Origin: Lathyrus oleraceus
Taxonomy: Eukaryota; Streptophyta; Magnoliopsida; Fabales; Fabaceae
Direction of reading: 5' to 3'
Assembly (NCBI RefSeq): GCF_024323335.1
Contig: NC_066583.1
Coordinates: 18,274,665-18,338,664, forward strand
Length of the DNA: 64,000 nt
A model generated the notes under the pieces. It was not told the DNA's origin. It ran no database searches and saw only the letters and a list, made by a program, of their open reading frames with translations. The position numbers and the translations under genes are program-made. Positions 20,092 to 57,786 of the stretch are shown in pieces. Position 1 is the first letter of the stretch. Every line of letters starts with the position of its first letter.

Positions 20092-20269
20092 CTTTCTCCG
20101 TACCAGATGGATTCTTCTTTTGAGATCGCTTCTTTGCCGTTTCTGACAGGCATGGTTAATTATTTCCCATCAGAGTGCAAATTGTTCGTCTGTTCTTGGT
20201 ATTCAATCACTCTTCACCCTGATCATTTGAAAGCCGAGGCTGTTCATATTGACAGGTTCATAATGGATT

Positions 20270-20282
20270 GAATAGGGGCAGC
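20270..20282 (+). other. Fragment D polypurine tract
   Basis: GAATAGGGGCAGC lies directly before the LTR start TGTAACACC. It is identical to the PPT of element C. Confidence 0.88.
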
Positions 20283-21509: not shown

Positions 21510-21517
21510 TATATAAA
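21510..21517 (+). promoter_or_regulatory. TATA-like box in D LTR
   Basis: TATATAAA about 1.2 kb into the LTR, followed by GAAACCCTAACTG. It corresponds in place and flank to the B box at 12933-12940. Probable U3 promoter. Confidence 0.5.
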
Positions 21518-22344: not shown

Positions 22345-22365
22345 AATGAAACGGCGCGTTTCATT
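22345..22365 (+). repeat. Strong 9-bp inverted repeat in D LTR
   Basis: Perfect arms AATGAAACG and CGTTTCATT around a GCG loop, about 2.06 kb from the LTR start. In B the homologous place (12016-12028) has a different hairpin, GGTGC/GCACC around AAC. Confidence 0.75.
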
Positions 22366-34921: not shown

Positions 34922-34949
34922 GTTCCATTGGCTGAGAGCCAATGGGAAC
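34922..34949 (+). promoter_or_regulatory. CCAAT-box hairpin in C 5' LTR
   Basis: GTTCCATTGGCT and AGCCAATGGGAAC pair over 12 bp with one bulged G and a three-base GAG loop. Each arm carries a CCAAT box on opposite strands. The copy in the 3' LTR is 54607-54634. Regulatory role inferred only. Confidence 0.6.
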
Positions 34950-36743: not shown

Positions 36744-36770
36744 AGCTCTCCCAGGCCTGGGATAAGAGCT
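36744..36770 (+). promoter_or_regulatory. Conserved 27-nt LTR stem-loop (C 5' LTR)
   Basis: Arms AGCTCT/AGAGCT enclose the perfect palindrome CCCAGGCCTGGG. The 3' LTR copy is 56429-56455. The same module is in B and D. Confidence 0.65.
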
Positions 36771-36933
36771 GTGAGGTCTCATCCTCACTTCATCCTTTCA
36801 TCTGCTTCACCTTAGTCTCTCAATGGCAAGGTTAAGAGCACCTTTTACCCTATTCCAGTTGGCCCTAGTGCCTAACCCTTGTTTGAGCCTCTTGCTTGTG
36901 TATAGTGTGTGCTATCTGTGCTTGTAGGATTTG

Positions 36934-37105
36934 TTTGACTTGCTTCCTGTGCAAGATAGGATAGTTTGACTTGCTTCCTGTGCAAGATAGGATTGTTTGA
37001 CTTGCTTCCTGTGCAAGTTAGGATTAGTTTAGACTTGCTTCCTGTGCAAGTTAGGTTTTGCTTGGCTTGCTTCCTGTGCAAGTTAAGTGTGTGTGGCTTG
37101 CTTCC
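36934..37105 (+). repeat. Roughly 30-bp tandem repeat in C 5' LTR
   Basis: GACTTGCTTCCTGTGCAAG or a close variant recurs six times. Each unit has small complementary arms CTTGC/GCAAG. The 3' LTR copy lies at 56619-56790 with the same number of units. Confidence 0.9.
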
Positions 37106-38098
37106 TGTGTGAGCCATACTTAGGATAGGTTGGCCCTTGTGCCATTCAGCTAGAAACCATAACTTAGGGTTGCTTTTGCATGACAACATCTAGGCTCGAG
37201 TCGTAGTCTCCCTAGAGTTGTGTCTCCCTCTGTTATCTGGTTAGGCTAGAACCTTTATCCCTGCGTAGGGGAACTACATCGCCCTGATCTTCATACCAGA
37301 TGAAGTATGTAGGCAGGAGATTGAGCTGATCTCTCCGGGCGCCCTTTTTCTTTGTGTTTGTGTTGTTTGACCTTTGCTAGGCTCGAGTCCCCGTACTCCT
37401 TAGCATTTGCTGTTTGTTTGTGTTGTTTGACAGTTATAGGCTGAGTCCCCGACTCCCTATCTATCTGTTGTGTTGTTTTGGTTCGGATGCTGATGTAAGC
37501 CCAGTGATTGGCATTCAGGCTCCATGTTTGCCTTCTTGTGTGTGTTTTAGGTTCGGATGCTGACATAAGTCCAGCGATCGGCAGTCGGGCTCCATGTTTG
37601 CCTGTGCTTTGTTTGTTTGTGTGCGTGTCAGCCGAGCTACGAATGCTCTGATTCTTCTCTCGTCCGAGAAGATACGTATGCATAGGATGCGATATCCTAG
37701 CGAGCATGTGTCGTTTCCCCAGTCCGAACTACTTCGACTCTGATGTCTATGCCTGATAGACTAAGTAGGCCCAGGATGCGACATCCTGCCGAGTCCAGTT
37801 TCAGTCAGTCTCTTTCGTTTCTTTCAGCCAGTGTGTGTAGATGTTTATGAGCAGTGTTTTAGCAACCAATATTCCTTCCTTTTGTGCGTGGATCCCGTAG
37901 AGTACTACGGATGCGTAGGGGTGCTAATACCTTCCCTTCGCATAACCGACTCCCGAACCCATACTCTTTGGTCGCGAGACCATGTTCTTTCCCAGGTTTA
38001 CTCTGAGCGTTTCCTTTCCCTCTTTTGGGATAAATAACGCACGGTGGCGGCTCTGTTGTTCTTTCTTTTCCCGCCGGTTTTTCGCGCGATGCGACAGC

Positions 38099-38116
38099 TG
38101 GCGACTCTGCTGGGGA
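38099..38116 (+). other. Element C primer binding site
   Basis: tggcgactctgctgggga begins two bases after the LTR end. It is identical to B's PBS and is the minus-strand priming site (tRNA-Arg in described Ogre elements). Confidence 0.9.
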
Positions 38117-38923
38117 TATAGAGAAGTTGACCTGTGCTGGTCCGTCTTCCCTAAGCGAGTCTCTCCTAGCGCTCTCTAGGTTAGGGTTTTGGTTGCTTTG
38201 TGCTGTGTTTATTTATTGCATTCATTATTTACTGTTTGCATTCATTGTCTGTTGTTTGCATTTATGTTTGTAATTATGTTTGCATTCATATTCATCTGTT
38301 CACCTGGCTGGTTGTCTGTTTCTCTCTGTTGGGGTGGGAGTTCTATGAGGTAAAAGGCCCAATACCCAGGCTATGAGTGAAATCTAGGAAACCTAGGAAT
38401 AGAGTGATTCATGGGAAGCGGGTGGTGTACGCCACTTAGCGGAACATTGATATCACGAGCAGTTCAGACTCTGATGGGGTATTATCGGTGCATACATCGG
38501 GTGTGCACAGGATGATATTCTTGAAAGGGTTGTTTATCCTGCGTTTCTCTTGACCTTACCCTGGCCTAGACTACACCCGTGAGTGGGGAAGGGTTCATCA
38601 TTACAGGTACTGTTGGTGACTTATGGTTCTGTTGGTAACTTTGGGTTCAGACAACAGTATATTCAGTTGACCTTGGGTTTTCAAGTTGGATTTGGGTTCT
38701 GAGTTTAGACCGAAGCTTCGACTTTGTGATCAGAGATGCACCGCCAGCCAGTTGTGTCTGCATCATGTGCATCATAGCATATTTATTTTCAAAAAGAAAC
38801 GCAAAAAAAAAAAATGAAAAAAAAAGAAAAAAAAAAGAAAAAAAAGAAAAAAAAAGAAAAAAAACTAATCCCTGCATGCATATCATTTCTCAGGTACATT
38901 CCAGAGCTTGTTCACTGATAGAG
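38117..38923 (+). other. Element C leader with A-rich tract
   Basis: About 0.8 kb of non-coding leader. An A-rich low-complexity tract occupies 38791-38864 (runs of A broken by G). It is followed by a pyrimidine stretch ending TTTCTCAG at 38893, which resembles a 3' splice site 30 nt before the ORF1 ATG. Confidence 0.8.
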
Positions 38924-40240
38924 ATGGCAACAGTCCCAGAGTTGAAGCGGAAGACCTGTATCTACGTTTTTCACCGGGAGCCTTTAACGCCTCTGATTAA
39001 GTTGGGCAGTCTTGTGACCAGTGATCGTCTAGGGGGGTTCGTGAACCAGTATGGGGATATCCTGACAGTGTTGAAGACAGTAGTTGACCCGGTGCCGTTG
39101 CAGACACTTCTTCAGTTCTATGACCCGGAGCTTAGATGTTTCACGTTCCAAGATTACCAGTTAGCACCTACTCTCGAGGAGTATTCTATATTGTTGAGCA
39201 TCCCGATTCAGCATCAGGTTCCTTTCTTGGACGTACCAAAGGAGGTTGACTTTAAGGTTGTTGCCAGAGCTCTCCGGTTGAGTGTTAAGGAAGTTTGTGA
39301 TAATTGGAAGCCCAGTGGGGGAGTTGTGGGTCTGCCATTGAAGTTTCTTCTGAGAATAGCCAGAGATGAAGCAGAAAAGGGGAATTGGGAAGTTTTTCAC
39401 GCACAGCTAGCTGCCATGATCTATGGGATCATCCTATTTCCCAGTATGCCAAATTTCATTGACTTCACTGCTATCAGCATTTTCATCAGAGGGAATCCAA
39501 TCCCTACTCTTCTAGCTGATACTTACTATGCCATCCACAGTAGGCATGGTAGGGGTGGAGCCATCAGGTGCTGTCTACCTCTCCTGTTCAAATGGTTCAT
39601 GTCTCTTCTGCCAGCCAGTGGACCGTTTGTGGATACCCAGAGCACTCTGAAGTGGACTCAGAGGATCATGTCGCTCACATCTTATGACATCAGATGGCAA
39701 TCTTACCGGATGAATGTGAAGAATGTTATTATGAGCTGTGGAGAATTCCGGAGTGTGCCACTCGTGGGGACCAAGGGTTGTATAAATTATAATCCAGTTC
39801 TTTCTCTTCGCCAGTTAGGTTTTGTTATGAGTAGAAGACCACGTGAAGCTGAGATAGCCGAGAGTGTGTACTTTGAGAAGAAGGATGACCCTGTTAGGTT
39901 GGAGCAGATTGGGAGAGCTTGGAAGTCCATTGGTGTCAGAGATGGATCCGTCTTAGGGAAGAAGTTTGCCATAGCCATGCCCGATTACACTGATTGGGTC
40001 AAGAAGAGAGTGGAAACTTTGTTGTTACCCTATGATAGGATGGAGCCGTTGCAGGAGCAACCACCTTTGATCCTTGCTGATAGTGTGTCTGCTGAACACT
40101 ATAAGCAAGCCCTAATGGAGAGTCGTCGTCTGAGAGAGAAGGAGCAAGACACTCAATGGAGTTGTATAAAGCTCAGGCTGATAGGTTGCACATGGCCCAT
40201 CAACTCAGGGAAGTACAAGGAGAAGATGCTAGCAGAGTAA
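38924..40240 (+). CDS. Element C ORF1 (unknown function, PMD-like), frameshifted at the 3' end
   Basis: 438 residues from the ATG at 38924, chosen because it corresponds to the start of element B's ORF1 and follows the A-rich leader; the frame is open further upstream only through that tract. The N-terminal 370 residues align with B's ORF1: FYDPELRCFTFQDYQLAPTL (about 65-84), IYGIILFPS, NPIPTLLADTYY, CCLPLLFKWF, GCINYNPVLSLRQLGF, and a PYDRMEP region. From about 40155 the sensible frame moves to the one running to 40563, and the last 27 or so residues here look like out-of-frame sequence. This is the extra ORF1 typical of Ogre elements. Its function is unknown, and a plant mobile domain relationship is a guess from the motif pattern. 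Confidence 0.85.
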   Translation: MATVPELKRKTCIYVFHREPLTPLIKLGSLVTSDRLGGFVNQYGDILTVLKTVVDPVPLQTLLQFYDPELRCFTFQDYQLAPTLEEYSILLSIPIQHQVPFLDVPKEVDFKVVARALRLSVKEVCDNWKPSGGVVGLPLKFLLRIARDEAEKGNWEVFHAQLAAMIYGIILFPSMPNFIDFTAISIFIRGNPIPTLLADTYYAIHSRHGRGGAIRCCLPLLFKWFMSLLPASGPFVDTQSTLKWTQRIMSLTSYDIRWQSYRMNVKNVIMSCGEFRSVPLVGTKGCINYNPVLSLRQLGFVMSRRPREAEIAESVYFEKKDDPVRLEQIGRAWKSIGVRDGSVLGKKFAIAMPDYTDWVKKRVETLLLPYDRMEPLQEQPPLILADSVSAEHYKQALMESRRLREKEQDTQWSCIKLRLIGCTWPINSGKYKEKMLAE

Positions 40241-40563
40241 GGAGCAAGAAGAGATCCTATGAGGAGATAGAGTCTATGTTAGATGCGGAGCATAGGGAAT
40301 GTCTGAGGCTGCAGAGAGCAGAAGCAAGTTATCAGAAGAAGATCAGAGACTTGGAGAAGCAACTCAGAGATAAAGATATCCAGTTGAAGAAGGAAGTAGA
40401 CTTGAGACAGGCATCAGAGAACCACCTTGGAGGAGAAGTGGTAGAGCTGAGAAGACAATTGAAGGAGAAGATTACCCCTCTACCAGAATGCTCAGAATGC
40501 TCACTGTTGATAGACCAGTGCCATTACCTGAAGACCCTCATTCCAGAAGACCGTCTGTCTTAG
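40156..40563 (+). pseudogene. Element C ORF1 C-terminal coiled-coil part, in shifted frame
   Basis: 135 residues, charged and heptad-like (RSKKRSYEEIESMLDAEHRE, then KKIRDLEKQLRDKDIQLKKE), so a coiled coil is likely. It overlaps the end of the upstream ORF1 frame in the -1 register. The frame is open from 40105. I read it as the natural C-terminus of ORF1 cut off by a single-base loss near 40155. An alternative is a separate small ORF starting at the ATG at 40156. I see no slippery heptamer that would argue for programmed frameshifting. Confidence 0.7.
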
Positions 40564-41087
40564 TTTGTATCTCTGATTGTATTTTGTTGAGAATCACCTC
40601 CAGGCTTGTTGGATGGGATTCATTTGCGTGTAAGCCATCTCTTGGATCTTTTGTTAAGAATCACCTCCAGGCTTGTTGGATGGGATTCATTTGCGTGTAA
40701 GCCATCTCTTGGATCTTTTGTTAAGAATCACCTCCAGGCTTGTTGGATGGGATTCTTTTTCTTTGTACGTTGTTTATTCAGATATTCTGTTGACATTGGT
40801 TGTATGCCTTTTTACCCTTATGTATATATAAGGATGTCAGCATTTCCTTGTATCTGTTTGTTCTCTTGTTGCTGCAGGTTGCCATCTTTTTCAGGATGGG
40901 TCAGGCTCTTTGAATGCCTGAGAAATGAGCATATCATGTGCATCATACGCATCATTAGCATCATACTCATATCATTTTGCATAACAGGTGTTCTTGATCG
41001 TGACTTCTCACTCTTGGTTCCTGTTCAGGCAGGATAGCTGATCAACGTCCGCACCGCTACTCAACAAGACTGAATCAACAGAGAAGT
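40564..41087 (+). other. Element C spacer between ORF1 and gag
   Basis: Non-coding. It contains a 67-bp tandem repeat (40591-40756), then CATCAT-rich sequence (about 40930-40990) ending in TTTTGCATAACAG, which resembles branch-point and acceptor sequence. Confidence 0.7.
40591..40756 (+). repeat. 67-bp tandem repeat, about 2.5 copies
   Basis: GAATCACCTCCAGGCTTG begins at 40591, 40658 and 40725. The first two units are identical by eye and the third stops after about 31 bp. Confidence 0.95.
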
Positions 41088-44000
41088 ATGGATCAATTTC
41101 AAGCTGAGTTGGCTGAGATGAAGGCAAGCATGGCCCAGTTTATGAATATGATGCAAGGGGTTGCGCAAGGTCAAGAAGAACTTCGAGCTATGGTTCAGAG
41201 ACAAGAGGCTGCAAATCCACCGATCAACCATGCTCCGCCAGAGGGAGGCCCGGTCAATGATAACAATATTGCTGCTGCTGTACCCGTCAACAACTATGCT
41301 GTAGGTGATGAGTTGGGGGGTATTCGAATCAACGGACAACCTATTGTTCCAGATGCCGCTAATGCCAGAGTAGTCCGTGCTCCGGCCCGTAATCCTGCTA
41401 CGATTGTTGACAGACAAGAGGATATGTTCTCTCTGCTCAGTGAAGACGAAGACATTCTAGGAAGGGTTAATGAGAGAGATCGTAAGGTTGAAGCTCTTGC
41501 TGAGAAGATCCGTGCTATGGAAAGTCAAAATTCCCTCGGTTTTGATGTTACTAATATGGGGTTGGTAGAAGGTTTGAGAATCCCTCACAAGTTCAAAGCA
41601 CCGTCATTCGACAAATACAACGGTACTTCTTGCCCTCGCACCCATGTGCAGGCTTACTACAGGAAAATCTCTGCGTATACCGATGATGAAAAGATGTGGA
41701 TGTATTTTTTCCAAGATAGTCTATCTGGGGCTTCTTTGGACTGGTACATGGAATTGAAGAGAGATTCGATCCGATGCTGGAGAGATCTGGGTGAGGCCTT
41801 CTTGAAGCAGTATAAACACAACATGGACATGGCACCGAGCCGGACTCAGCTGCAGAGTCTTTGTCAGAAATCCGGAGAAAGCTTCAAGGAGTATGCCCAG
41901 AGGTGGCGTGAGCTGGCCGCTAGAGTTCAACCCCCTATGCTGGAGAGGGAGCTGACAGACATGTTTATTGGTACTCTTCAAGGTGTGTTTATGGACCGGA
42001 TGGGGAGCTGCCCGTTCGGTAGTTTTTCTGATGTTGTCATTTGTGGAGAAAGGACTGAGAGTCTAATCAAAGCTGGTAGGATCCATGACGCTGGTTCCTC
42101 GTCTTCATTAAAGAAACCCTTCTCTGGAGCACCTCGCCGTAGAGAAGGAGAGACCAATGCTGTACAGCACAGAGGGGGTGTGTACAGAACAAATGCTAAC
42201 AGAGATCAATATCGTCCAGTGGCTGCAGTAACCATTCCGACACCTCAACCTCGTCAACAACAACAACCAAGAGTTCAACAACCGCAACAACAACAACAAC
42301 AGCAGCGTCCTTATCAGCCCAGACAGAAATTGCAGGCTGATAGAAGATTTGATCCTCTGCCTATGTCTTACGCAGAGCTACTACCCGAACTACTCCGGTT
42401 GGGGATGATTGAGTTGCGTACAATGGCTCCGCCTACAGTGCTGCCTCCTGGTTATGATGCAAACGCCCGTTGTGACTTTCACTCTGGGGCACCAGGCCAC
42501 CATACTGAGAAGTGTCGAGCTCTCCAGCACAAGGTTCAAGATTTGATCGATGCCAAGGCAATCAACTTCGCTCCAGTGCCTAATGTCGTAAACAACCCTA
42601 TGCCTCAGCATGGTGGGCATAGAGTGAACAATATTGAAGGGAAAGAAGCTGAAGATCTGGTTGTTAATGTTGATGATGTTCAGACTTCTCTGCTAGTTGT
42701 GAAGGGTCGTCTGCTGAATGGGGGTGTCTACCCGGGCTGTGACGAGAATTGTTTGGGCTGTGCAGAATCTGAGAATGGTTGCGACCAGTTAAGGGCCGGT
42801 ATCCAGGGTATGATGGATGAGGGTTGTTTGCAATTCAGTAGGGCTGTAAAAGATCGTGGAACAGCGTCAACTATCACCATTTACTTTAAACCGTCTGAAG
42901 AACGTGGACAAAGGGTCGTCAGTGCACCTGCAACAAATGGTACCCCAGTTACCATTCCTGTGCCTGTAACCATCAGTGTTCCAACTACTATCGTCGCGTC
43001 TGGAAGAAGGGCTGTTGAGAATAGTAGAGCCGTGCCATGGAAGTATGATAATGCTCATCGCAGTTACAGAAGGGCTGAAAGTCAGACAAGACCAGTGAAT
43101 CAAACTCCAGTGACAATTGGTTTACCGAATAGAGTTCCTGCAACTGTTGGTCCGGCTGTGGATAATGTAGGGGGTCCAGGAGGTTTTACCAGAAGCGGTC
43201 GTCTGTTCGCACCGCAACCTTTGAGGGACAATAATGCCGAGGCTCTCGCCAGAGCAAAGGGTAAGCAAGCTGTGGTTGAGGAAGAACCTGTCCAGAAGGG
43301 AGCACCCGAGGGGTCATTTGAGAAGGACGTGGAGGAGTTTATGAAGATAATCAAGAAAAGTGACTACAAGATTGTGGATCAGTTGAATCAGACTCCGTCC
43401 AAGATTTCTATACTTTCACTGTTGATGTGCTCTGAAGCACACCGTAATGCCTTGCTGAAGATGTTGAATCTGGCTTACGTGCCTCAGGAGATTTCTGTCA
43501 ATCAACTAGAAGGTGTGATGGCCAATGTGAGCACCAGACATGGTGTGGGTTTCACCAACCTGGACTTACCACCTGAAGGGCGAAACCATAACAAAGCCTT
43601 GCACATTACCATGGAGTGCAAGGGGGCAGTGTTGTCTCATGTATTGGTAGACACCGGGTCGTCGTTGAATGTGTTGCCTAAGCAGATTCTGAGGAAGATT
43701 GACGCGGAAGGGTTTGTGCTTAATCCCAGTGACCTGATCGTTCGTGCTTTCGACGGCTCCAAACGTTCTGTGTGTGGGGAGGTTACCTTGCCTGTGAAGA
43801 TAGGTCCTGAGGTATTCAATGTCATCTTCTATGTTATGGACATCCAGCCCGCCTATAGTTGTTTGTTGGGGCGTCCGTGGATTCATGCAGCAGGGGCAGT
43901 CTCGTCGACTCTCCATCAAAAGCTCAAATATGTCTGGAACGGTCAGATTGTGACTGTGTGCGGTGAAGAAGAGATTCTGGTGAGTCATCTATCCTCGTTC

Positions 44001-44425
44001 AAATATGTTGAGGTGGATGGCGAGATCCACGAAACCTTATGCCAGGCATTTGAGACTGTGGCTCTTGAGAAAGTGGCGTACGCTGAGCAGAGGAAGCCGG
44101 GTGTTTCAATTACTTCTTACAAACAGGCTAAGGAGGTCGTTGATTCTGGCAAGACTGAAGGCTGGGGCAAGATGGTGGATTTGCCGGTTAAAGAAGACAA
44201 ATTTGGTGTTGGTTATGAGCCTCTCCAAGCAGAGCAGAATGGTCAAGCGGGTCCGAGTACCTTTACCAGCGCTGGGCTGATGAATCATGGCGACGTCTCT
44301 GCAACCGGTAGTGAAGACTGTGACAGCGATTGTGGTTTGGACAACTGGGTTCGCCCGTGTGCACCAGGGGGGTCTATCAACAACTGGACGGCTGAAGAAG
44401 TGGTTCAAGTTACTCTTCTGACAGA
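41088..44425 (+). CDS. Element C gag-protease (exon 1 of gag-pro-pol)
   Basis: 1113 residues from the ATG at 41088. Order: N-terminal heptad-like region (MDQFQAELAEMKASMAQFMN), gag capsid core at about 165-300 (YNGTSCPRTHVQAYYRKI, SGASLDWYMEL, FLKQYKHN), a glutamine-rich stretch at about 385-410 encoded by CAA runs, a variant zinc knuckle at about 462-476 (CDFHSGAPGHHTEKC, i.e. C-x2-H-x5-H-x4-C), a long linker, and an aspartic protease with LVDTGSSLNVLP near 855 and LLGRPWIH downstream. It forms the particle core and matures the polyprotein. The TAA at 44427-44429 lies inside the intron, so spliced RNA continues into pol while unspliced RNA ends here. That would give a gag-pro to gag-pro-pol ratio set by splicing. 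The frame is fully open. Confidence 0.95.
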
Positions 44426-44681
44426 GTAATTTTCTGTTGTTTTGTCATTTTGCATGAAAATCCTACGTTCTGCCCAAGGCGTAGTGATTCATTTTTGTAG
44501 GGCCTCATCATGTTTTAATGATTATCATTAATGAAGGACATTTTTTGAACAAACTTTGTGATCCTTGTCTTTCTATTTTTTGTTTTCATTTTCCTTTTTC
44601 AAAAACAATAAAAATGGCAATGTTTTTTGTTTTTGTGACTTTATTGAACTCTTTTTCTAAAACAAAGCATCAAACATGCAG
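44426..44681 (+). other. Element C Ogre intron (256 nt)
   Basis: The donor GTAATT starts at 44426 and the acceptor AACATGCAG ends at 44681. Joining 44425 to 44682 forms a GAA codon and continues exactly in the frame of pol. The donor hexamer is the same as in element A and the stop codon TAA is part of the donor. A regulated intron here is established for Ogre. The precise sites are my inference from frame, consensus and conservation between A and C. Confidence 0.88.
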
Positions 44682-47600
44682 AAGCGATCTTATGGCATTC
44701 ACTATGAACAGTTCTGTTATGGCTCAGTATGATTTCGATAATCCCATTTACCAAGCTGAAGAGGAGAGTGAGGAAGACTGTGAACTCCCTGCAGAATTAG
44801 CCAGATTGCTGAAGCAGGAGGAAAGGGTCATCCAACCTCATCAGGAGGAGTTGGAAACTATTAATTTGGGTACTGAGGACGCCAAAAAGGAAATTAAGAT
44901 TGGGGCTGCTTTAGAAGACTCTGTCAAGAGGAGGCTGATTGAGATGCTGAGAGAATATGTGGAGATATTTGCCTGGTCATATCAAGATATGCCTGGATTG
45001 GATACAGATATTGTGATGCATCGATTACCTCTTAGAGAAGGATGTCCTTCGGTCAAGCAGAAGCTTCGTAGAACGAGTCCTGACATGGCAACTAAGATCA
45101 AGGAAGAGGTTCAGAAGCAGTGGGATGCAGGTTTTCTGGCTGTTACAAGTTATCCGCCGTGGGTGGCCAACATTGTTCCTGTGCCGAAGAAGGATGGAAA
45201 AGTCAGAATGTGTGTCGATTACCGGGATTTGAACAGAGCGAGTCCGAAAGATGATTTCCCATTACCTCACATTGACGTATTGGTTGATAATACGGCTCAA
45301 TCCTCGGTATTCTCTTTCATGGATGGTTTCTCCGGATACAATCAGATCAAGATGGCGCCAGAGGACATGGAAAAGACGACATTCATTACACCTTGGGGCA
45401 CGTTCTGCTATAAGGTGATGCCATTTGGGCTAAAGAATGCGGGTGCTACCTATCAGAGGGCAATGACGACTCTCTTTCATGACATGATGCACAAAGAAAT
45501 TGAAGTATACGTAGATGACATGATTGCAAAGTCGCAGACAGAAGAGGAGCACCTGGTTAATTTGCAGAAGCTGTTTGATCGGTTGAGAAAGTTCAAGCTG
45601 AGGTTGAATCCGAACAAGTGTACGTTTGGGGTGAGATCCGGGAAGCTCTTAGGCTTCATTGTCAGTGAGAAAGGGATTGAGGTTGATCCAGCGAAAGTCA
45701 AAGCTATTCAAGAGATGCCAGAACCGAAGACGGAAAAGCAAGTCCGTGGGTTTTTAGGAAGACTGAACTACATTGCAAGGTTCATATCTCATCTAACTGC
45801 TACATGTGAACCAATTTTCAAACTGCTTAGAAAGAATCAGGCGATCAAGTGGAATGATGACTGTCAGAAGGCTTTTGACAAGATAAAGGAGTATTTACAG
45901 AAACCTCCAATCCTTATACCTCCAGTTCCAGGGAGACCTCTGATAATGTACCTGTCAGTGACTGAGAACTCGATGGGGTGTGTATTGGGACAGCATGACG
46001 AGTCTGGTCGAAAAGAGCATGCCATATACTACCTTAGCAAAAAGTTTACCGACTGTGAAACAAGATATTCGCTGCTCGAGAAAACTTGCTGTGCTTTGGC
46101 CTGGGCTGCTCGCCGACTGAGACAGTATATGTTGAACCATACTACCTTATTGATTTCTAAGATGGACCCAGTGAAGTACATCTTTGAGAAGCCGGCTCTC
46201 ACCGGACGTGTTGCCCGTTGGCAGATGATTTTAACAGAATATGACATTCAGTACACGTCCCAGAAGGCCATCAAAGGTAGTATTCTGTCAGACTACCTCG
46301 CCGAGCAACCGATCGAAGATTATCAGCCTATGATGTTTGAATTTCCTGATGAAGACATCATGTATCTGAAGATGAAAGATTGCGAAGAGCCTCTTGTCGA
46401 GGAAGGACCGGACCCGGATGACAAATGGACACTGATGTTTGATGGGGCTGTGAATATGAATGGTAATGGTGTTGGGGCAGTATTGATCAATCCTAAAGGT
46501 GCTCATATACCTTTTTCTGCCAGATTGACGTTTGACGTCACCAACAACGAAGCTGAGTATGAGGCTTGTATCATGGGGATAGAAGAAGCCATTGATCTGA
46601 GGATCAAAACTCTTGATATATTTGGAGATTCCGCTCTAGTGGTCAATCAAGTCAATGGAGATTGGAATACGAACCAGCCGCATTTGATTCCGTATAGAGA
46701 TTACACCAGGAGAATACTGACGTTCTTCAAGAAGGTGAAGTTGTATCATGTCCCCCGGGATGAGAATCAAATGGCTGATGCCTTGGCTACTTTGTCGTCT
46801 ATGATCAAAATTCATTGGTGGAATCATGTGCCACATGTTGCGGTGAATCGACTTGAGAGGCCTGCATATGTGTTCGCAGCCGAGTCTGTTGTGACTGATG
46901 AGAAGCCATGGTATTATGACATCAAGAATTTCCTCAAGACTCAAGAGTATCCTGAAGGTGCGTCGAAGAATGACAAGAAAACCCTGAGGAGGCTAGCTGG
47001 AAGCTTCTATTTGAATCAGGATGATGTGCTATACAAAAGGAACTTTGACATGGTCTTGCTCAGATGCGTGGATAGACACGAAGCGGACATGCTAATGCAA
47101 GAAGTTCATGAAGGTTCCTTCGGTACTCATGCCGGCGGTCATGCAATGTCGAAGAAATTGCTGAGAGCTGGTTATTACTGGATGACTATGGAATCCGATT
47201 GTTTCAAGTATGCTCGGAAGTGCCATAAGTGTCAAATCTATGCTGATAAGGTGCACGTACCACCAAGCCCTCTGAATGTCATGAATTCGCCTTGGCCGTT
47301 TGCCATGTGGGGCATTGATATGATTGGGAAGATTGAGCCTACTGCTTCGAATGGACATCGCTTCATCTTGGTAGCGATTGACTATTTCACCAAATGGGTG
47401 GAAGCAGCTTCCTATGCTAATGTTACCAAACAAGTGGTTGCTCGGTTCATCAAGAAAGAAATCATATGTCGTTACGGAGTTCCTGAGAGAATCATCACTG
47501 ACAATGGTTCGAATCTCAACAACAAGATGATGAAAGAGCTTTGTAAAGATTTCAAGATCGAACATCACAATTCTTCTCCTTACAGACCGAAGATGAATGG

Positions 47601-48159
47601 TGCTGTGGAAGCGGCGAACAAGAATATCAAGAAGATTGTGCAGAAGATGGTCGTTACGTACAAGGATTGGCATGAGATGCTGCCTTTCGCTTTGCATGGG
47701 TACCGTACCTCAGTACGTACGTCGACCAGGGCGACCCCTTACTCCCTTGTGTATGGTATGGAAGCTGTCCTACCTGTTGAAGTGGAGATTCCTTCTCTGA
47801 GAGTTTTATTGGATGTCAAGTTGGACGAAGCCGAGTGGATTCGAACAAGGTTTAACGAGTTGAGCCTTATTGAGGAGAGACGGTTAGCAGCTGTATGCCA
47901 TGGACAGTTGTATCAGAGAAGGATGAAGCGAGCCTTTGATCAGAAAGTGCGTCCTCGGACATTTCAGATCGGTGATTTAGTTTTGAAGAGGATCCTTCCT
48001 CCCGGTGCAGACAACAGGGGCAAGTGGACTCCTAACTATGAAGGTCCGTATGTTGTGAAGAAGGTCTTCTCCGGTGGAGCCTTGATGCTTACGACTATGG
48101 ATGGTGAAGATTTTCCGTCTCCTGTCAACTCAGATGTAGTCAAAAAATACTTCGCATAA
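44682..48159 (+). CDS. Element C pol: RT, dual RNase H, integrase (exon 2)
   Basis: About 1158 residues after splicing. Reverse transcriptase: VCVDYRDLN-like region, FMDGFSGYNQIKMA near 212, YVDD near 275. A connection RNase H follows (YLSKKFTDCETRYSLLEK), but its first catalytic Asp position reads YLSVTENSMGCVLGQ, so it looks inactive. A second RNase H follows (FDGAVNMNGNGVGAVL near 585, EAEYEACIMG, GDSALVVNQV, ADALATL). Integrase: zinc finger HEADM...HEGSFGTH...CRKCHKC-like near 800-850 (ending KCHKCQIY), catalytic Asp in GIDMIG near 879, Asp in TDNGSN near 940, and Glu in NGAVEA 36 positions later (the usual DD35E). A GPYVVKKVF motif precedes the KKYFA end. No chromodomain is visible. The dual RNase H is characteristic of the Tat/Ogre lineage. 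Confidence 0.96.
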
Positions 48160-50710
48160 ATTGACCCGCTGGACGAAAAGAATAAAAGAGTCCAGGCAAA
48201 AAAATGGGCATCCCGGCGAACCAAAAAACAGAAAGAAAAGGTTCGGGCAAAAATTAGGGATAAAAAAATAAAAAAAATTGTACACCCGGTAAGTCGAAAA
48301 CCCGCAAGGGCGACTTAGGCAAAAATGGGTATCCCGGTGGATTGAAAACCCGAAAGGGCGATCCAGGCAAAAGTTAGGGATTAAAGCGAAGACTACAGTC
48401 TGAGTTTGTCTGTACTTCATCAAGCTTTATCGTCTGCCATCTCGAAAGATGTGATCCGTCCAGTCATTCTTCTCAGAAAGCAAGGAGTTGGGAGGAAAAC
48501 TGATGATCTGTGAGTTATAACAGAATTGGGAAATAGTGGATGCCGTGTTCACATTGCCATTAGGATAGATTTTTTCCTTTTGTGCGCAATTACCTCTTTC
48601 TAGGAATTGCTTCCCAATGTATTTGCCTCTTCAGGCACATTTTCAATCAATAAAAGTCGTTATTCAGATAAATAGCTCTTTTGTTTTTATTTTTACTGTT
48701 TTGTTTGCAAAATGTCCGAATTTTTGATAAGCATTGCATATAAGAACATGGAGGCTACACAATAACGTGCAGAAAGGTAAAACATTTGAAAATCATTTTG
48801 AAGGTTGAGGACACTTGAGCGTATCTTGTCCATGTCTCCCCTGGGGGCATTTTGTTGTGTTGTTTTTCAGATCAGCATCTGTGAGGACGTTTCCTCAGCA
48901 GATTTTTTCCCCAAGCAAGTTCGGAAGCTATCAGAGTTATGTTTCCCTGCAGAGACGTCTGTGGATAGTGCCTTCTATTCCCCAACAGATCTAGGGATTG
49001 CCTATCCCCAGCAGGCCTGCATTTGCCGTTTTCCTCCCCGAGCGAGGCAGTTTCATTGAATTTATCTCCAGCATTTATCCTATCTGTGGACTGAAGGATA
49101 TCCCCGGCGGAGTTTACCCTTCCCCCAGCAGCAGTGCTATTCTCCAACATGAGTGTGAAGTCGCTTTACCATCCCTCAAGCAGAGTTCCCCGCAGAATAT
49201 TTCCCCAAGAGGAGTCTCCCCACAGAGTCAGAGTATCTGATTATTTCGGCTCCCTAGCCAGGGTTCATTTGCATTTTGCATGTAGTAATCATTGCATCCT
49301 CAAAAATTGCGTAGCATTCCCATTCAATATGGAGCGTTACGCCATAGAAAAATTCAAACATATGCATTCATGTGTCAACTTCACCAGACCGTATCCCCGG
49401 CAGAGGCGGATCATTTCATTCAACATCAGCACAGCAAGACTGCTACAGTTGCTCTTGACAGCATTCAGAATTGTTTATTCCCCACAGAGGTTTATTTCCT
49501 CACCCGATGGTGACAGAGGTTTATTTCCTCACCCGATGGTGACAGAAAGTTTGTTTCTCTCCAGTGAGACCCCCAGCAAGTGGTCAACCTTGCCTTGACA
49601 TATCTCAGATGTCGTTCTTGTGATACCAGTAAGTGTCATGTCAGCACCCGTGTGTGTTTCTTCTTTTGGTGTCGGTAAACACCATTGTTTCGGTGTCTGT
49701 AGACATCGAGTCTTCCTCCAGTCATCAGTAAATGTCTGGTCATCATTTTTGATGTCGGTAAACATCATATTTCGATGTCTGTAAACATCGAGTCTCACTC
49801 CAGTCATCGGTAAATGTCTGGTCATTTTTGATGTCGGTAAACATCATCTTTCGATGTCGGTAAACATCGAGTCTTTTCCTCAGTCATCGGTAAATGTCTG
49901 ATAATCCCCAACTAGAAATCCCCAGTAGAGTCATCTGTAAATGTCCTATCTGTTTTCCAGTTGCAAATATTTGTATCTCCCCAATTAATAATTTCTCATT
50001 TCCAGTCATCGGTAAATGTCTGGTCATTCTTTGATGTCGGTAAACATCATCTTTCGATGTCGGTAAACGTCGAGTCTCATCCCAGTCATCGGTAAATGTC
50101 TGGTCAATAAAATCAAAATCCCCAGAAGTCGTCGGTAAACGTCTTGTCTGGTATCACCACAAAGATTTTGTTTCTCCCCAAGTGGAGACGCCATCGGTAA
50201 ATGGCCCCGTTTTCTTCGATATCGGTAAATGTCGAATTCCCAGTTACAGTAGCCATCGGTAAATGGCCAGTTTGAAGTTGACATCGGTAAATGTCAAGTT
50301 TCTTTGAAGCCACCATCGGTAAATGGTCTTGCTTCCTTATTACATCAAATTTTGTTCCCAGCAGCCATCGGTAAATGGTCGTGCTGAAGTTGATATCGGT
50401 AAATATTAAGGTCCCAGTTTTTAACCATCGGTAAATGGTTTTGCTTTTCAGAAGTTTGTTTTTCCCAGCCGCCATCGGTAAATGGTCGTGCTGAAGTTGA
50501 TATCGGTAAATATCGAGTTTCCAGTTTCTAACCATCGGTAAATGGTTTTACTTTTCTGAAGCTGTCATGCAGTTTGTCATCGGTAAATGACGTGGTTCCT
50601 TTGTATTATATCCAGTCTGTGCAAATTCTACGGTTCCTTGGTATTCAATCCCTGTTTACCCTGAAAGTCTGACAGCCGTCGCTATCATCCATTCGGGTTC
50701 CCAGCTGATT
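48160..50710 (+). other. Element C 3' untranslated spacer
   Basis: About 2.55 kb between pol and the PPT. It starts with a doubled aaaacccg-aagggcg motif (48298-48365) shared with A and B, then ccccagcag-rich sequence (48840-49570), then the hairpin array (49668-50591). No supported ORF. Confidence 0.88.
49668..50591 (+). repeat. Element C hairpin array (CGGTAA hexaloop)
   Basis: About twenty or more hairpins in 0.9 kb share the loop CGGTAA closed by a T-A pair, while the arms differ. Examples: GGTGT/ACACC (49668-49683), GATGT/ACATC (49751-49766), GCCAT/ATGGC (50190-50205 and 50252-50267), TTGACAT/ATGTCAA (50278-50297), ACCAT/ATGGT (50312-50327), TTGATAT/ATATTAA with one G-U pair (50390-50409), AACCAT/ATGGTT (50423-50440 and 50530-50547), GATAT/ATATC (50499-50514) and GTCAT/ATGAC (50576-50591). 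CAGTCAT/ATGTCTG with one mismatch recurs several times. Confidence 0.92.
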
Positions 50711-50723
50711 GAATAGGGGCAGC
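50711..50723 (+). other. Element C polypurine tract
   Basis: GAATAGGGGCAGC lies directly before the 3' LTR start, identical to D's PPT. Confidence 0.92.
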
Positions 50724-53700
50724 TGTAGCACCTCAAATTTGCACCTATCATTATACATACATTTTCATATTAGGTCATAGCATGTCATGATCCATTGCAT
50801 AGCATTTGCATTGTCCCTCAGTTGTCTCAAGTGCAAGCAATCAGAATTAGGTCAAACTAATCTTCTGATCAGTCAACCAAGCAAGCAAAAGAATTTCTCA
50901 TTGAATCAAGGCCCTAAGGTTTGTGCAACAAGTTCACATGACTTGGAGGTCTATTTGAAGTATTTTGGTCAAGGGTTAAGGGCTCAGAGGTCAGCAGTTC
51001 ATGCCCAGACAGTCAAGAACCCTAAAAAAGTCAACTGTCAGTCAAAGCAGTGGATGGTGGTCATTCTTGTGGAATTTAGGCACCATGGTCAATAATCAAG
51101 AGTTCATACAACTTGGGACATCATTTGAAGTCAAGTCCTCAAGGAATCAGGGTTTGGAATTCATCAGTCAATGCATAATCAGTCAGAAACCCTAAAAGTC
51201 AACTGTTGGTCAACTGTCCATTTAATCAGTGATTGGATGATTGGATTTGGTTTGTGAGAGTTCATTCATGTCCAAATAGTCATCATACATCATGCCAAAC
51301 ACCATCATGGAAGAATTTGAAGCCAGATCATGAATTTCCCAAAATGGAAACTGGGCCTGTAACTGAAACCTGCCATAAATGGAAAGTCTTGATCCTCAAA
51401 CTTACATTGTGATACAAGCCTCAAATGAATTTTTGCCCAACATGAAAGTTGAAGATCTTGTTCTCCCATTTCCAAAAAGTCCTAGAACTCTCAATTCCCA
51501 TGTATGGTTGGCAAGTTATGATCGAATCGATTTTAGAAAATCTTGAACTTCAAAGGGCCATATCTCCCAAACCGTTTGGCCAAATTTGGTGGGGTTTTTT
51601 CCTACAAACCACATTTTTCATCCTCTTTCCAAAAATATAAATTTCATGACCCAAAACTTCACCAATCAAAATGGCAAATTTTGACCTTTTTCATTTAAAT
51701 GTAAGTTTGACCAAGAGTTGACTTTTTGACTCAAACATTTTTTCAGCATTTGGCCAATTGTAAAAGCTCATAAATGTCATTTAGAGTGTGTTTGCAAAGT
51801 CAAATTATGCAGCACATGTGAATCTTGCTTGGTTGCTTGAATTGTAAGAAAGGTACAAATGCACCATACTTGTCCATGCCTTGCCTTGTACCTCAAGAGG
51901 ACAGCAATTATGCAGCATTCTTGATCATTCTTCTGTCACTTTTGAGGCCTTGTAGTGCAGCCATACTCCAATAGTACATATGGCCATGTTTGTTTACTTG
52001 AATTTTGGAAAATGAGTACAAAGCAACCATTCATCCATGTTTCCACACCTTAATTTGTACTATCCAACAGCAGGGCATGGCATGATTTTCTGTCACTGAT
52101 AGCAGCATTGGAAGCAAGGAGCAAAGGAACCAATCTTTCATTCACCTTGCCCTCACCCTGCTATGGGCATCTCACCCTTTCTGCCAAAAGAAAAATGACA
52201 TAGATCTGGCCCTCACCTTGTTTCTTCGGTCAAGAACAAAAAACACCTAAGCCAAAGCCTTTGCCCTTTCTTTTGCATCATTTTCTGTCATACACACACA
52301 CATAGAACAAACAACCCTGCCACAAAAATAACTAAATCTCCAAACCAGCAAAAAAGGCACCACACCCCTGTCATGAAAAGATCCTGCATCATTTTTCCTG
52401 CCCTTGGTAGACAACAGCAACCTGGTTCATAAAAAATAAACTCACTTGCATTATGCCAAACCTTGCCTTGCATTGTCTAAAAAAAAACTGCACCATTTCC
52501 CTGCCATAACAAGACCATTAGCAGACAAAAACAAACTGACTGAGGCCAAAATCTTGATTTCCCTCTCATTTGGCACTGTTGGAAAACTGTCAAAAACTCC
52601 ATCTTTCATGGCTATGCTTGGTACTGCAGAGACCAATCTTGTTCATTTTTCTGCCACACCACAAAATCCTAGCAGCAGACCAACCAAAGGTTCTTGGACC
52701 TGGCCTTGCATTTTCTAAAAATTGTCCAAACACAAGAGTGCCAAAACCTTGCCAACAAACTTGCTAGCAGCATACCACCATACAGCAGCCACAGACCAAA
52801 ACATCCATTCTCCTCTCATCTTGCATTTTTTGCACAAAGGGAGTTCTGAGCAAAACATCAAAAAACCCTTGAACCACCTTCATTATTTCTTCATCTGGAC
52901 TCCATTTGGAAGTGATTTGCTGCATCAGACATCCTCTGCATAGCCATCTTCATGTCCTGTTTTCTCAAAGCTCAACAAATGGCAAATCGAGCTGTGAGAT
53001 TTTCCAAGCATTCTTGAGCTTGTCTACACCAAGTATCCTTCATTGCCAAGCACAAGGAAGGACTGTTCGAGCACAACAACTTCAAAACACCACTGCATCA
53101 CCATTGTGCTTCAAATTTGGTAATATTTCGAACTTCATCATTCATTAAGCCATGCCATGTTTCATGTAGGTCTTACTTAGTAGGATGATTTAAGCTTTGA
53201 ATCACATTAAATGGATGACTATGCTGTGAGATATCTTGATTTTCATTTTGGTGAACAAATGCATTTTTCATCGATTTAGCTTGGTTATAATGATTTGGTG
53301 AAAAGTGGTGCCATGTTTGTGATACTGAATGTTTGATGATGCTATTGGTGCAATTAATTTTGGGATCTGAGCATTTTGATTTTCCTGCTTACATGAAAAT
53401 GATGATCATGCTGTTACCTTAAAACCCTAATTCTGTCCAGAGTTTCTCACTGTTAATGCTTGTTTGGTGGATGGTTGATGTTGCTTGATGGTCACTATGC
53501 CATGACATTGTGTGTTTGTGTTTGAAACTTGTTGGATGTTGATGAATCATAAACATGAAATTGGTGTTGCTTACCCTGCTAAGTGATTTTTGTTTTCTTT
53601 GATGTTGATTAAGCATGAGATGAGTTTATGCAGGCTGCTGTTTAAACCCTAGTCTTCCAGAAGCCTACATGAATTTAGTGGCTTACTATTGTTCTAGTTG

Positions 53701-56700
53701 TGTGAGAGCCAATACTATGCTATGCCCTGCTGTTGTTATTAGTATTTGCATGATCATTTGTTACTGCTATGCTGAAAATGATGTGTACCCCTGCTGTTTT
53801 GCTGCCTTAAGCTGCCAAGGAAATCTCATGAATATGATGTATGCTGTTGTTCATGATTGGTGGTTTGAATGATGATTAGTGATGAATACATGTTACCATG
53901 CTGCTAAACCCTGCCATGATAAATCCTGTGATTTTTCCAGAAAACTAGATCATGTATGTTGGCTGATGTTTGTCTGTTGGTGTTAGAAGTTTGTTTTGAT
54001 GTTGGTAACTACACAATGAACCATGCCTAGAAAATCCATGTGAATCATGTTTGAATGCTGTTTGATTGGTTGTTTATTTGTTGGAATTTCAATTGATTAC
54101 TTGATGCTGTCAATGCCCTGCTGTTTGAAAAAACCTCTTAACTTGCTTGTAAAATCCACATGATTGATGTTTGGTTGTGTTGGTCGTGGATGCTTGACTT
54201 ATGTATTGTTACATGTTGCTGTTCATTTGTTGTTGTTTCTGGTTGATTGATCAAGCTGAATGATGAGCCATTGCTGTTGTTTGTTTTGTTTTGGATCGAT
54301 ACCATGAGCTTGATGCATTGCCCTGCTGTTTTGAGTTTGTTTGTTGGACTTCATTTTGATTAATTGCATGAAGTTACATGAGTGAGAATGCCAAGCCATG
54401 CTGCTAAAACCCTGTTGCTGTCTTGAACTTAGCCCAGAAATCCATATGTTTTGTGTTACCATGCTGTTGATTGCTTGCTGAATAAATGCTGTTGTATGCT
54501 AGTCAAGTTTTTGTGTTGCTGTTGATTGCCATATGCCATGTATGCTGTAAAACCCTAAGGGTTTATGAGAAAAACCAGAAATTTGGGCTCCTTTGGCCAA
54601 TACACTGTTCCATTGGCTGAGAGCCAATGGGAACATTTCATTTCTTTCCCCAAAACGCAGTAGTTTAGATTAGTGAGTCCCAAATTACGCTTATGCCATC
54701 GTTGACTCTTATGTTGACCAATTGCCATGCCATGTTCTTCATGTTTCCATTCAAATGTTCATCAACTTCCATAATTCATTTTAAATTCATTTTAACTCCA
54801 AAAATTATGAAATTTTTTGCATGATGATCACAAATGAGTCTAGTATTTTATTGTGAATTTTAATTAATTTTTCAGTGGCTGGATTTTAAATGATAATTGT
54901 TTTCCCAACATGTATGCCAAAACGACACCCTTTACCATTTCAATTGTGAAATACTCATGACATATCCATTGCCTTTGAAATTTTTTGTGATGAAACTAGA
55001 CATGTTCACCTTCATTTTGATATAAAGTTTGTGGATTTCCCATTTGTGGTTTGCTGGATATGATTTTTTGAAGTTATGTGTCACATTTGGTGTCATACCA
55101 TGATCATGCATTTTCCCTAATTTTGTTCACATGCTTCCTTGCATCCAATTGACCCCATTTTTTGCATGAATGATCCTTTGTATGTCTATTTCATGTATGA
55201 ATTTTCTTGGAATTAATCTTGCTGTTTTCCATTTGATTGTGAATTTTCTTCCATGCTTGGTCATTTGTTGACTTTTTGTGCTATACATTGCCAAATCTTT
55301 TGGGAAATTCTCATAACATATCACATGATCATGCAATTTCATATGTGATAACTAGACATCTCAAGCTTTGCATTGGTGTTAATCTCATTCATTTCTCATC
55401 TGTTTTCAATTTGATATGATTTTTTGAAGTTGACACATGCTTGTTGACTTTCTTTGTACATGCTTGAACTTGGTTTGACTTCATGATTTTAGTTGACTGC
55501 CTTCCTCTCATCCAAATGCCATGAAATTTTACATGTCTACCATGTTGGATGTTAGGATTGAGTGTGATTTATTTGATGATTTTTGAGATTGTTTAGGTTG
55601 ACTTTTGATGCAAGGAATTCTGTTGACTTTTGTATGCTTTCCTTTGCCTTACTTTGATTTCAAATGTTTATGAAATGATAATGATGCATGATATGATTGT
55701 GGGCCCAATTGCGATTGCTTTCTAATTGGTTGACTTTGACTTTGAGTTGACTTTTCCTTGCTGCCTTGACTTTTTCTTTCATCTTTGACCCTAGGCTAGC
55801 CCTAGTGGTCCTTTGGACTTATGTTGAGTTCATCTGTTTCAGGTTGAGCATAGTGCTTCCAAGATCATACCAATTTGATTGATGTTTGTTTGTCTATATT
55901 GTGCTAACCTTTTGTTTTGTAGGTGACTCATGTGTTTGAGTCTTACTTTGCACAGTTGACCTTCTGTGGTTGACTGTTTATCCATTCCTTTTGGTTTTAA
56001 CTTTGAAACCGTTTACTGATTGGTTTGACTTTTTCAGGTACCTTAGTTGCTTAAGTTCTCTGAACTTGCTTTGCTTTGCTTTTTAGCAACTTGCTTGAGG
56101 TATAATCTCTTTTACTCCATGTAGTCTGGAAGACCTGGCCTGTTACTTGGCCAGGCAACTGTCTGAAGTCCTCCTTAAGAGGCAATGTTTGTGGATGTTT
56201 ACTTTTGTCCCTGCATAGAGTCAAAGTCCTCCTAAGTGAAGAGGCAATTGGTGGAAGGTAGGGATATGCAATCTATCCCCCACTATTCAGTGTGTCATCT
56301 GCCTTGCTCACACCACTGTGTTGATGCATTGCAGATACAAACCCAAGATCTTGTACAACTGTACAGTTGAGTCAGTTTTAAATGTGTAGAAGGGTTCCCA
56401 CTTTCTGAACCCACACATTCTTGTCTTGAGCTCTCCCAGGCCTGGGATAAGAGCTGTGAGGTCTCATCCTCACTTCATCCTTTCATCTGCTTCACCTTAG
56501 TCTCTCAATGGCAAGGTTAAGAGCACCTTTTACCCTATTCCAGTTGGCCCTAGTGCCTAACCCTTGTTTGAGCCTCTTGCTTGTGTATAGTGTGTGCTAT
56601 CTGTGCTTGTAGGATTTGTTTGACTTGCTTCCTGTGCAAGATAGGATAGTTTGACTTGCTTCCTGTGCAAGATAGGATTGTTTGACTTGCTTCCTGTGCA

Positions 56701-57781
56701 AGTTAGGATTAGTTTAGACTTGCTTCCTGTGCAAGTTAGGTTTTGCTTGGCTTGCTTCCTGTGCAAGTTAAGTGTGTGTGGCTTGCTTCCTGTGTGAGCC
56801 ATACTTAGGATAGGTTGGCCCTTGTGCCATTCAGCTAGAAACCATAACTTAGGGTTGCTTTTGCATGACAACATCTAGGCTCGAGTCGTAGTCTCCCTAG
56901 AGTTGTGTCTCCCTCTGTTATCTGGTTAGGCTAGAACCTTTATCCCTGCGTAGGGGAACTACATCGCCCTGATCTTCATACCAGATGAAGTATGTAGGCA
57001 GGAGATTGAGCTGATCTCTCCGGGCGCCCTTTTTCTTTGTGTTTGTGTTGTTTGACCTTTGCTAGGCTCGAGTCCCCGTACTCCTTAGCATTTGCTGTTT
57101 GTTTGTGTTGTTTGACAGTTATAGGCTGAGTCCCCGACTCCCTATCTATCTGTTGTGTTGTTTTGGTTCGGATGCTGATGTAAGCCCAGTGATTGGCATT
57201 CAGGCTCCATGTTTGCCTTCTTGTGTGTGTTTTAGGTTCGGATGCTGACATAAGTCCAGCGATCGGCAGTCGGGCTCCATGTTTGCCTGTGCTTTGTTTG
57301 TTTGTGTGCGTGTCAGCCGAGCTACGAATGCTCTGATTCTTCTCTCGTCCGAGAAGATACGTATGCATAGGATGCGATATCCTAGCGAGCATGTGTCGTT
57401 TCCCCAGTCCGAACTACTTCGACTCTGATGTCTATGCCTGATAGACTAAGTAGGCCCAGGATGCGACATCCTGCCGAGTCCAGTTTCAGTCAGTCTCTTT
57501 CGTTTCTTTCAGCCAGTGTGTGTAGATGTTTATGAGCAGTGTTTTAGCAACCAATATTCCTTCCTTTTGTGCGTGGATCCCGTAGAGTACTACGGATGCG
57601 TAGGGGTGCTAATACCTTCCCTTCGCATAACCGACTCCCGAACCCATACTCTTTGGTCGCGAGACCATGTTCTTTCCCAGGTTTACTCTGAGCGTTTCCT
57701 TTCCCTCTTTTGGGATAAATAACGCACGGTGGCGGCTCTGTTGTTCTTTCTTTTCCCGCCGATTTTTCGCGCGATGCGACA
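50724..57781 (+). repeat. Element C 3' LTR (7058 bp)
   Basis: From TGTAGCACCTC to GCGACA. Internal landmarks repeat those of the 5' LTR: CCAAT hairpin 54607-54634, 27-nt stem-loop 56429-56455, 30-bp repeats 56619-56790. Differences from the 5' LTR seen by eye include an a/g near 51035, an indel near 54230, a/c near 54942, c/a near 55617 and g/a near 57761. Confidence 0.96.
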
Positions 57782-57786
57782 ATATC
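57782..57786. repeat. Element C target-site duplication, right copy
   Basis: ATATC, matching 31035-31039; element B's LTR sequence continues with TAGCTC. Confidence 0.96.

Follow-up and report, generated by a model that had tools for sequence, protein, structure and literature searches.

An array of micro-hairpins with a near-fixed loop and covarying stems, probably under selection, in the 3′ UTR of an Ogre-type retrotransposon of Lathyrus oleraceus

Ogre elements make up much of the genome in some legumes, reaching 45% in Lathyrus sativus (PMC7004042), and the 3′ untranslated region (UTR) of the Ogre/Tat lineage is known for hypervariable tandem repeats (Macas et al. 2009, as cited in PMC7004042 and PMC9659126). 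Here, we analysed a window of 64,000 nt of Lathyrus oleraceus DNA (RefSeq assembly GCF_024323335.1, contig NC_066583.1, forward-strand positions 18,274,665 to 18,338,664; coordinates below count from its first base), in which an Ogre-type element, element C, carries a row of tiny hairpins that is very probably a selected hairpin array. This array shares with the described Ogre/Tat repeats its lineage, its location between pol and the 3′ long terminal repeat (LTR) and its tandem, variable units. However, the parts of the cited papers that bear on those sequences treat them as repeats and sources of satellites, whereas the unit here is a hairpin with a constrained loop and constrained pairing; the main text of PMC7004042 contains none of the terms hairpin, secondary structure or palindrom. 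By architecture, the array can also be likened to the constitutive transport element of Mason-Pfizer monkey virus and to murine RNA transport elements, which are, according to the relevant parts of PMC4829213 and PMC5767303, likewise cis-acting structured RNAs acting on unspliced genomic RNA, but each of these animal elements is a single compact structure, unlike the 26–41 tiny hairpins reported here. In Ty3, a Ty3/gypsy relative, RNA packaging depends on the UTRs or POL, and a hairpin array is not mentioned in the relevant text of PMC4974528. A literature search by title and abstract found no description of such an array, although most subscription papers lay outside its coverage and a published description may therefore exist. 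To our knowledge, no cis-acting RNA signal has been described in Ogre elements. Retroviral packaging signals expose conserved hairpin loops that are bound by the zinc knuckles of Gag; they resemble the present array in having conserved-loop hairpins, but they are few and reside in the 5′ leader, in contrast to a long array in the 3′ UTR.

The array and its immediate surroundings are as follows:
48160..50709, plus strand: 3′ UTR of element C, from the pol stop to the polypurine tract (PPT) and 3′ LTR
49620..49639, plus strand: outlying hairpin with stem TGATAC/GTGTCA (one G-U), loop CAGTAA and a C-G closing pair
49667..50593, plus strand: array of 26 micro-hairpins with loop C-N-GTAA and covarying stems, defined by core search, folding and covariation
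50710..50723, plus strand: PPT region immediately 5′ of the 3′ LTR, by sequence inspection

Between 49667 and 50593, 26 cores lie within one mismatch of TCGGTAAA; exact CGGTAA occurs 23 times on the plus strand, from 49673 to 50586, and 13 hairpins (9 distinct stems) combine this exact loop with a Watson–Crick stem of at least 5 bp. The original prediction, made from the sequence alone, had placed the start at 49668 and listed eight matched stems on a constant CGGTAA loop closed by a constant T-A pair, with G-U pairs among the exceptions. All eight stems were found, and the start moves to 49667, or to 49620 if the C-G-closed unit is counted. The loop proved constant at positions 1 and 3–6, giving C-N-GTAA, but not at position 2: among 1080 units from 34 copies, preselected at no more than one mismatch to CGGTAA, 800 have CGGTAA, 123 CTGTAA and 119 CAGTAA. 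Likewise, T-A does not close every unit: the C-G-closed inner stem type of 49620–49639 is present in 19 of the 34 copies, and G-U pairs do occur, but so does a T·T mismatch at the fourth pair in 7 of 27 units (selected on the loop alone, with at most one mismatch to CGGTAA), mostly inside a longer stem, CAG-CAT/ATG-CTG. Pairs 6–7 are frequently open, and some units are evident duplicates of one another. When the 941-nt array is folded, the probability of the second pair is at least 0.5 for 22 of the 26 hairpins, and the folding z-score is −5.8 (sense strand, 20 shuffles). Rfam covariance models gave no match in 48160–50722 at thresholds up to E=1, and a known RNA family was rejected on this basis. 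Read as sequence, the near-fixed GTAA of the loops at 49673–50586 appears GNRA-type.

The stems of the C array change in step. In the 27 units anchored on the loop alone, Watson–Crick pairing accounts for 90% (97% with G·U) of the 14 distinct 5-bp arm pairs, compared with 62% when the arms are redealt; none of 20,000 permutations reached the observed level. Pairing holds in 88.6% of cells across the 26 units, which form 20 distinct rows; six of the seven pairs are altered on both sides, and the covariation score is 0.642 versus 0.284±0.036, with none of 500 shuffles reaching the observed value; 38 cells are changed on both sides, as opposed to 12.9±2.8 in 500 shuffles, and sliding the partner column by 1–3 lowers pairing to 20–42%. 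The number of pairs with any double-sided change (6 vs 5.2) and the number of pair types (14 vs 13.3) show no excess over shuffles, and these shuffle controls leave kinship among the units uncorrected. Compensatory changes of the kind that mark a structured RNA are present across the units of the C array and, as described below, of the D array. Chance clustering of CGGTAA was ruled out by its count in the whole window on both strands (34 vs 7.85±2.92 by chance), by the unbiased scan described below and by the arm permutation. Hairpins with a stem of at least 5 bp and a loop of 4–8 nt number 23 in the array against 3.8±1.8 in 60 shuffles, whereas the LTR (48 vs 42.1±6.3), ORF1 (5 vs 7.4), gag (10 vs 15.1) and pol (20 vs 18.1) of element C show no clear excess, and a generally hairpin-rich element was thus ruled out for C. 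The 3′ UTR upstream of the array has 15 hairpins versus 7.1±2.8 in shuffles, and excesses outside C were seen in the LTR of element D (45 vs 28.4±6.4) and in the 3′ UTRs of elements A (22 vs 14.8±3.6) and B (31 vs 15.6±4.2). Plain tandem duplication of a single palindrome was rejected because the stems vary on both sides while the loop is nearly fixed, and because alleles shared among copies (see below) avoid loop and stem.

In an unbiased scan of the window for loops (at most one mismatch) recurring on different stems, six dinucleotide shuffles peaked at 3–4 distinct stems, and two loci stood out: the C array and 19644–19991, with 7 distinct stems in 15 units. The latter belongs to a truncated element, D:
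19644..20091, plus strand: second array, with 20 hairpins of at least 3 inner standard pairs, loop consensus NTTCAG and stems mostly of 4–5 bp
20268..25357, plus strand: PPT region, then the LTR-like rest of element D, in which 24389–25357 aligns with the LTR of element C at 71.6%

Like the C array, the D array sits just upstream of the PPT region, and its stems include TGGC/GCCA, CGAT/ATCG, CGAC/GTCG, CGGT/ACCG, TGGT/ACCA, CAAC/GTTG and TCAGT/ACTGA. Arm permutation gave 0 of 20,000 for arms of 4–6 bp and 4 of 20,000 for arms of 3 bp. Counting off-register matches, the motif occurs 31 times in the window, with 20 distinct 4-bp arm pairs that are 59% Watson–Crick versus 36% (0/20,000), and the 103 units of five copies, selected by loop motif only, comprise 29 distinct arm pairs, 68% versus 47% (0/5000). 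Pair counts from 41 hand-picked units (39 distinct rows, with common repeats, off-register and non-pairing matches omitted) yielded 44 cells changed on both sides versus 17.9±6.7, affecting all five pairs; pair types did not rise (9 vs 10.1), and in 28 of the 39 rows the outermost pair does not form.

Two further 3′ UTRs in the window hold weaker candidates:
7236..8170, plus strand: element A 3′ UTR, with CAGTA-type octoloop and TTAACC/CTAACC hexaloop hairpins
14480..15920, minus strand: element B 3′ UTR, with octoloop CAGTA(AC/TT)C and a class of 14-nt loops

Here the loop classes were chosen by eye, and they do covary: arm permutation gave 0/5000 for the A-type octoloop (5 bp), 135/5000 for the A-type hexaloop and 9/5000 for the B octoloop, whose stems are CTACC/GGTAG, ATACC/GGTAT and CATC/GATG. 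In the unbiased scan, however, six loci with B-type hairpins reached 3–4 distinct stems versus 2–3 in shuffles (three local mononucleotide shuffles per locus; locus L013 has only one B-type unit). Because this outcome is borderline, our firm claim of the architecture is limited to C and D, and equally strong arrays in all Ogre 3′ UTRs were not upheld. The 14-nt loops of B stand on stems TATCCA/TGGATA, TATCTA/TAGATA and TATTCA/TGAATA (14655–15010, minus strand, and loci L009–L014), and inside the loop CGT-TCTG-ACG alternates with CGG-TCTG-CCG, a compensatory change. Another copy with B-type hairpins (L012:3109–4339) has a loop CCAGY on CTCC/GGAG, TTCC/GGAA, ATCT/AGAT and ACTCT/AGAGT. The element A 3′ UTR contains tandem repeats of ~106 and ~210 bp at 7270–7830, which in position alone resemble the source of a known pea satellite.

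Genome-wide, adjacent TCGGTAAA core pairs spaced 10–40 nt apart number 101,668 (49,760 forward and 51,908 reverse), compared with 380 (182 and 198) for the same pattern read backward. First-look searches returned 5270 candidates for the C array and 5327 for the D array, and 40 of each were scored. The PPT pattern was found in 31 of 34 C-type copies, and in 29 of these 31 the last core lies 134–137 nt ahead of it, with the number of units ranging from 27 to 41; in the other two, the last core is 183 and 774 nt before the PPT, and the units number 26 and 5, respectively.

We aligned the 30 best-scoring of the 40 scored C copies, which are the nearest to the window copy, and, as a proxy, read private alleles as mostly post-insertion and alleles shared by at least two copies as having passed through active elements. 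Private alleles are similarly frequent per site in the loop (0.10; 13 at 135 sites of positions 1 and 3–6), the stem (0.12; 32 at 270 sites) and the spacer (0.16; 82 at 522 sites, or 31/303 = 0.10 in strict spacer columns), whereas shared alleles are strongly unequal, at 0.007 (1), 0.093 (25) and 0.356 (186) per site. Loop position 2 (27 sites) has 9 private and 13 shared alleles; it was set apart post hoc, once its variation was seen. With position 2 omitted, the private-to-shared ratio differs from that of the spacer with Fisher P values of 4e-6 for the loop and 4e-4 for the stem, and the contrast persists when gap-adjacent spacer columns are removed (1.9e-6 and 4.3e-4), when seven near-identical copies are dropped, leaving 23 (3.9e-4 and 1.1e-3), and when the window copy serves as the yardstick (3.2e-3 and 9.8e-4). 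With position 2 included, the loop versus spacer values are 5.8e-4, 2.5e-4 with strict columns and 4.4e-3 with 23 copies. In addition, single changes at Watson–Crick pairs kept pairing in 24 of 44 cases, against an expected fraction of 0.328, calculated from the proportion of transitions in the spacers (p=0.0024, one-sided), and the double changes between aligned copies, only four, are all Watson–Crick. The original prediction had named, as one refuter, palindrome formation with no retention bias; such a bias was found, and because shared alleles are depleted in the loop and stem while private alleles differ far less, the loop and the pairing appear to be under selection. Palindrome formation alone is insufficient to account for this constraint. 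That structure rather than stem sequence is kept, as had been proposed, is supported by covariation above the shuffled and slid controls, by this allele contrast, by the frequent retention of pairing after single changes and by the parallel in element D.

An array acting as sense RNA would be expected to tolerate G·U but not A·C. By alignment, tolerated mismatches are G·U in 24 cases and A·C in 11 (p=0.041, 30 copies), or 24 and 10 (p=0.024, 23 copies); among unit types, the ratio is 7 to 2 for those in at least five copies, 21 to 5 for those in 2–4 copies and 21 to 15 for private ones. One G·U stem type is present in 33 of 34 copies, and the inner four pairs of the D array show 18 G·U versus 5 A·C. 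Spacer transitions are strand-symmetric (45 per 125 C sites, 29/80 G, 68/207 T, 32/110 A). These data weakly favour sense RNA as the acting strand and do not prove it.

Several observations nevertheless weigh against a selected array acting as sense RNA. The G·U excess is modest, arm composition alone yields a ratio of 1.1–1.7, and private changes show a comparable excess (15 vs 7). The antisense strand is at least as stable when folded, both over the whole C array (z −6.6, from 20 shuffles, versus the sense value given above) and in mean energy per unit (−4.6 vs −4.2 kcal/mol). The D array does not surpass its shuffles in overall stability (z 0.06) and shows no excess in stems of at least 5 bp (3 vs 1.7±1.5). 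Because the 30 aligned copies are the best-scoring ones, the private and shared classes are only a proxy for changes after and before insertion. Finally, the commonest double change, found in 13 of the 30 copies, occurs alongside an altered neighbouring unit, so a whole repeat segment may have been exchanged instead of two mutations having arisen.

Element C itself, judged from its sequence, is a young Ogre-type element, with the following parts:
31040..57781, plus strand: element C, Ogre-type Ty3/gypsy LTR retrotransposon, with a 5-bp target-site duplication ATATC; ends set from sequence
38639..40240, plus strand: open reading frame (ORF) 1, DUF7745 domain (Pfam PF24924, E=2.4e-116), upstream of gag
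41004..44429, plus strand: gag-protease ORF (Retrotrans_gag, 1.1e-13; Asp_protease_2 under its curated cut-off)
44488..48159, plus strand: pol ORF with reverse transcriptase, RNase H, RVT_3 and integrase (Pfam, ORF table)

Its LTRs (31039–38096 and 50723–57781, ~7.06 kb each, the first base being a chance match) are 99.887% identical. The domain content fits the account of Ogre in the relevant part of PMC6317226, in which RNase H is followed by a second RNase H domain and then by integrase: in pol, RVT_3 (residues 651–768) sits between RT_RNaseH (481–585) and Integrase_H2C2 (861–918). The extra ORF typical of Ogre is represented by the DUF7745 ORF that precedes gag, and the 3′-UTR tandem repeats by four Tandem Repeats Finder rows within 49484–50561. 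The gag-protease and pol ORFs are separate and in different frames, and the translated Gag, inspected by eye, contains a single zinc-knuckle-like motif, C-x2-H...GH-x4-C. Directly upstream of the C array, two 29-bp repeats (49484–49546) hold small hairpins, GAGG/CCTC and CACC/GGTG. Element C is inserted in an LTR of the minus-strand element B, which it splits into 27734–31040 and 57782–59385 with the duplication ATATC; the other LTR of B lies at 9165–14069.

As to function, we tentatively propose multivalent docking on the genomic RNA, by which a protein of the element would package or export it, a reading that we hold at somewhat less than even confidence. On the full-length transcript, the hairpin row would form a selected cis-acting RNA element, each unit presenting a near-identical loop; many hairpins in a row would confer avidity, duplication of units would keep the array multivalent, and the platform would mark unspliced genomic RNA for a protein. 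Five near-fixed loop positions and one free position, on a stem that needs only to pair, resemble a protein contact surface. The candidate partners would be the ORF1 product and Gag, the latter binding by way of its zinc knuckle; we rate either of them likelier than a host factor because the C and D loops differ while the architecture is the same. The platform could be used for packaging of the element's own RNA, for nuclear export of the intron-retaining RNA, or for both; the gag-pol intron of Ogre is, according to the pertinent text of PMC6317226, spliced from only part of the transcripts. The docking proposal is supported by the covariation in C and D, the allele contrast, the bias towards keeping pairs, the free second position in an otherwise near-invariant loop, the G·U over A·C count, the near-fixed distance to the PPT, the zinc-knuckle-like motif of Gag, the partial splicing of the Ogre intron and the dependence of Ty3 packaging on the UTRs or POL (PMC4974528). 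We infer that RNA is most likely the acting molecule, a protein most likely its ligand, and packaging or export most likely its role.

The reader of the hairpins might instead be a host export factor, recruited as by a constitutive transport element and carrying the intron-retaining genomic RNA out of the nucleus. Partial intron retention in Ogre fits this explanation, as do the cis export elements of simple retroviruses, four copies of one of which outperform one (relevant part of PMC4829213), and a Caenorhabditis elegans LTR retrotransposon that requires its own protein for genomic RNA export (relevant part of PMC10309623). However, a conserved host ligand should hold one loop across families, whereas CNGTAA of C differs from NTTCAG of D, and the Rfam search of the region was empty; we regard host export as unlikely. 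Improbable, in our view, is a purely mutational origin, in which reverse transcription, by slipping or switching templates, creates small palindromes and makes them alike, and tandem duplication then spreads the units without function. The variation in unit number across the 29 copies, the plain duplicates among units and the possible segment exchange behind the commonest double change all suit such a process, but it would not make shared alleles scarce in the stems and at loop positions 1 and 3–6 while spacers vary and private alleles are near equal, nor would it leave a single loop position free, and G·U stem types persist across many copies.

The near-fixed place beside the PPT, together with antisense hairpins at least as stable and with a four-base loop, would also suit an action of the minus-strand complementary DNA, in which the hairpins affect plus-strand priming, strand transfer or integration. 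The mismatches point the other way, since the plus strand favours G·T over A·C (7 vs 2 among types in at least five copies and 24 vs 11 by alignment), and, even allowing for these small counts, we give this explanation little credence. Mimicry of splice signals seems the most remote of the alternatives: GGUAA in C resembles a weak 5′ splice site and TTCAG in D a 3′ splice site, a likeness of sequence only, and such loops might titrate or recruit splicing factors and so control splicing or poly(A) site use. Yet the variable loop position 2 breaks GG in 242 of 1080 units, and C and D would imitate opposite sites.

Extending the docking proposal across families is more doubtful, but it is possible that the 3′ UTR of each Ogre family carries its own hairpin barcode, with a family-specific loop, drifting stems and its own Gag or ORF1 reader, and that selection for docking copies drives the hypervariable repeats that seed legume satellites. 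Our analysis suggests that seemingly "junk" 3′ UTR repeats may serve as docking sites on the element RNA. If so, the array would provide a signal, open to experiment, by which giant plant retrotransposons could recognise their RNA and move it. It would also explain why tandem repeats keep arising in Ogre 3′ UTRs, and it would supply naturally occurring constant-loop hairpins, with loops that differ between elements, for studies of RNA–protein co-evolution.
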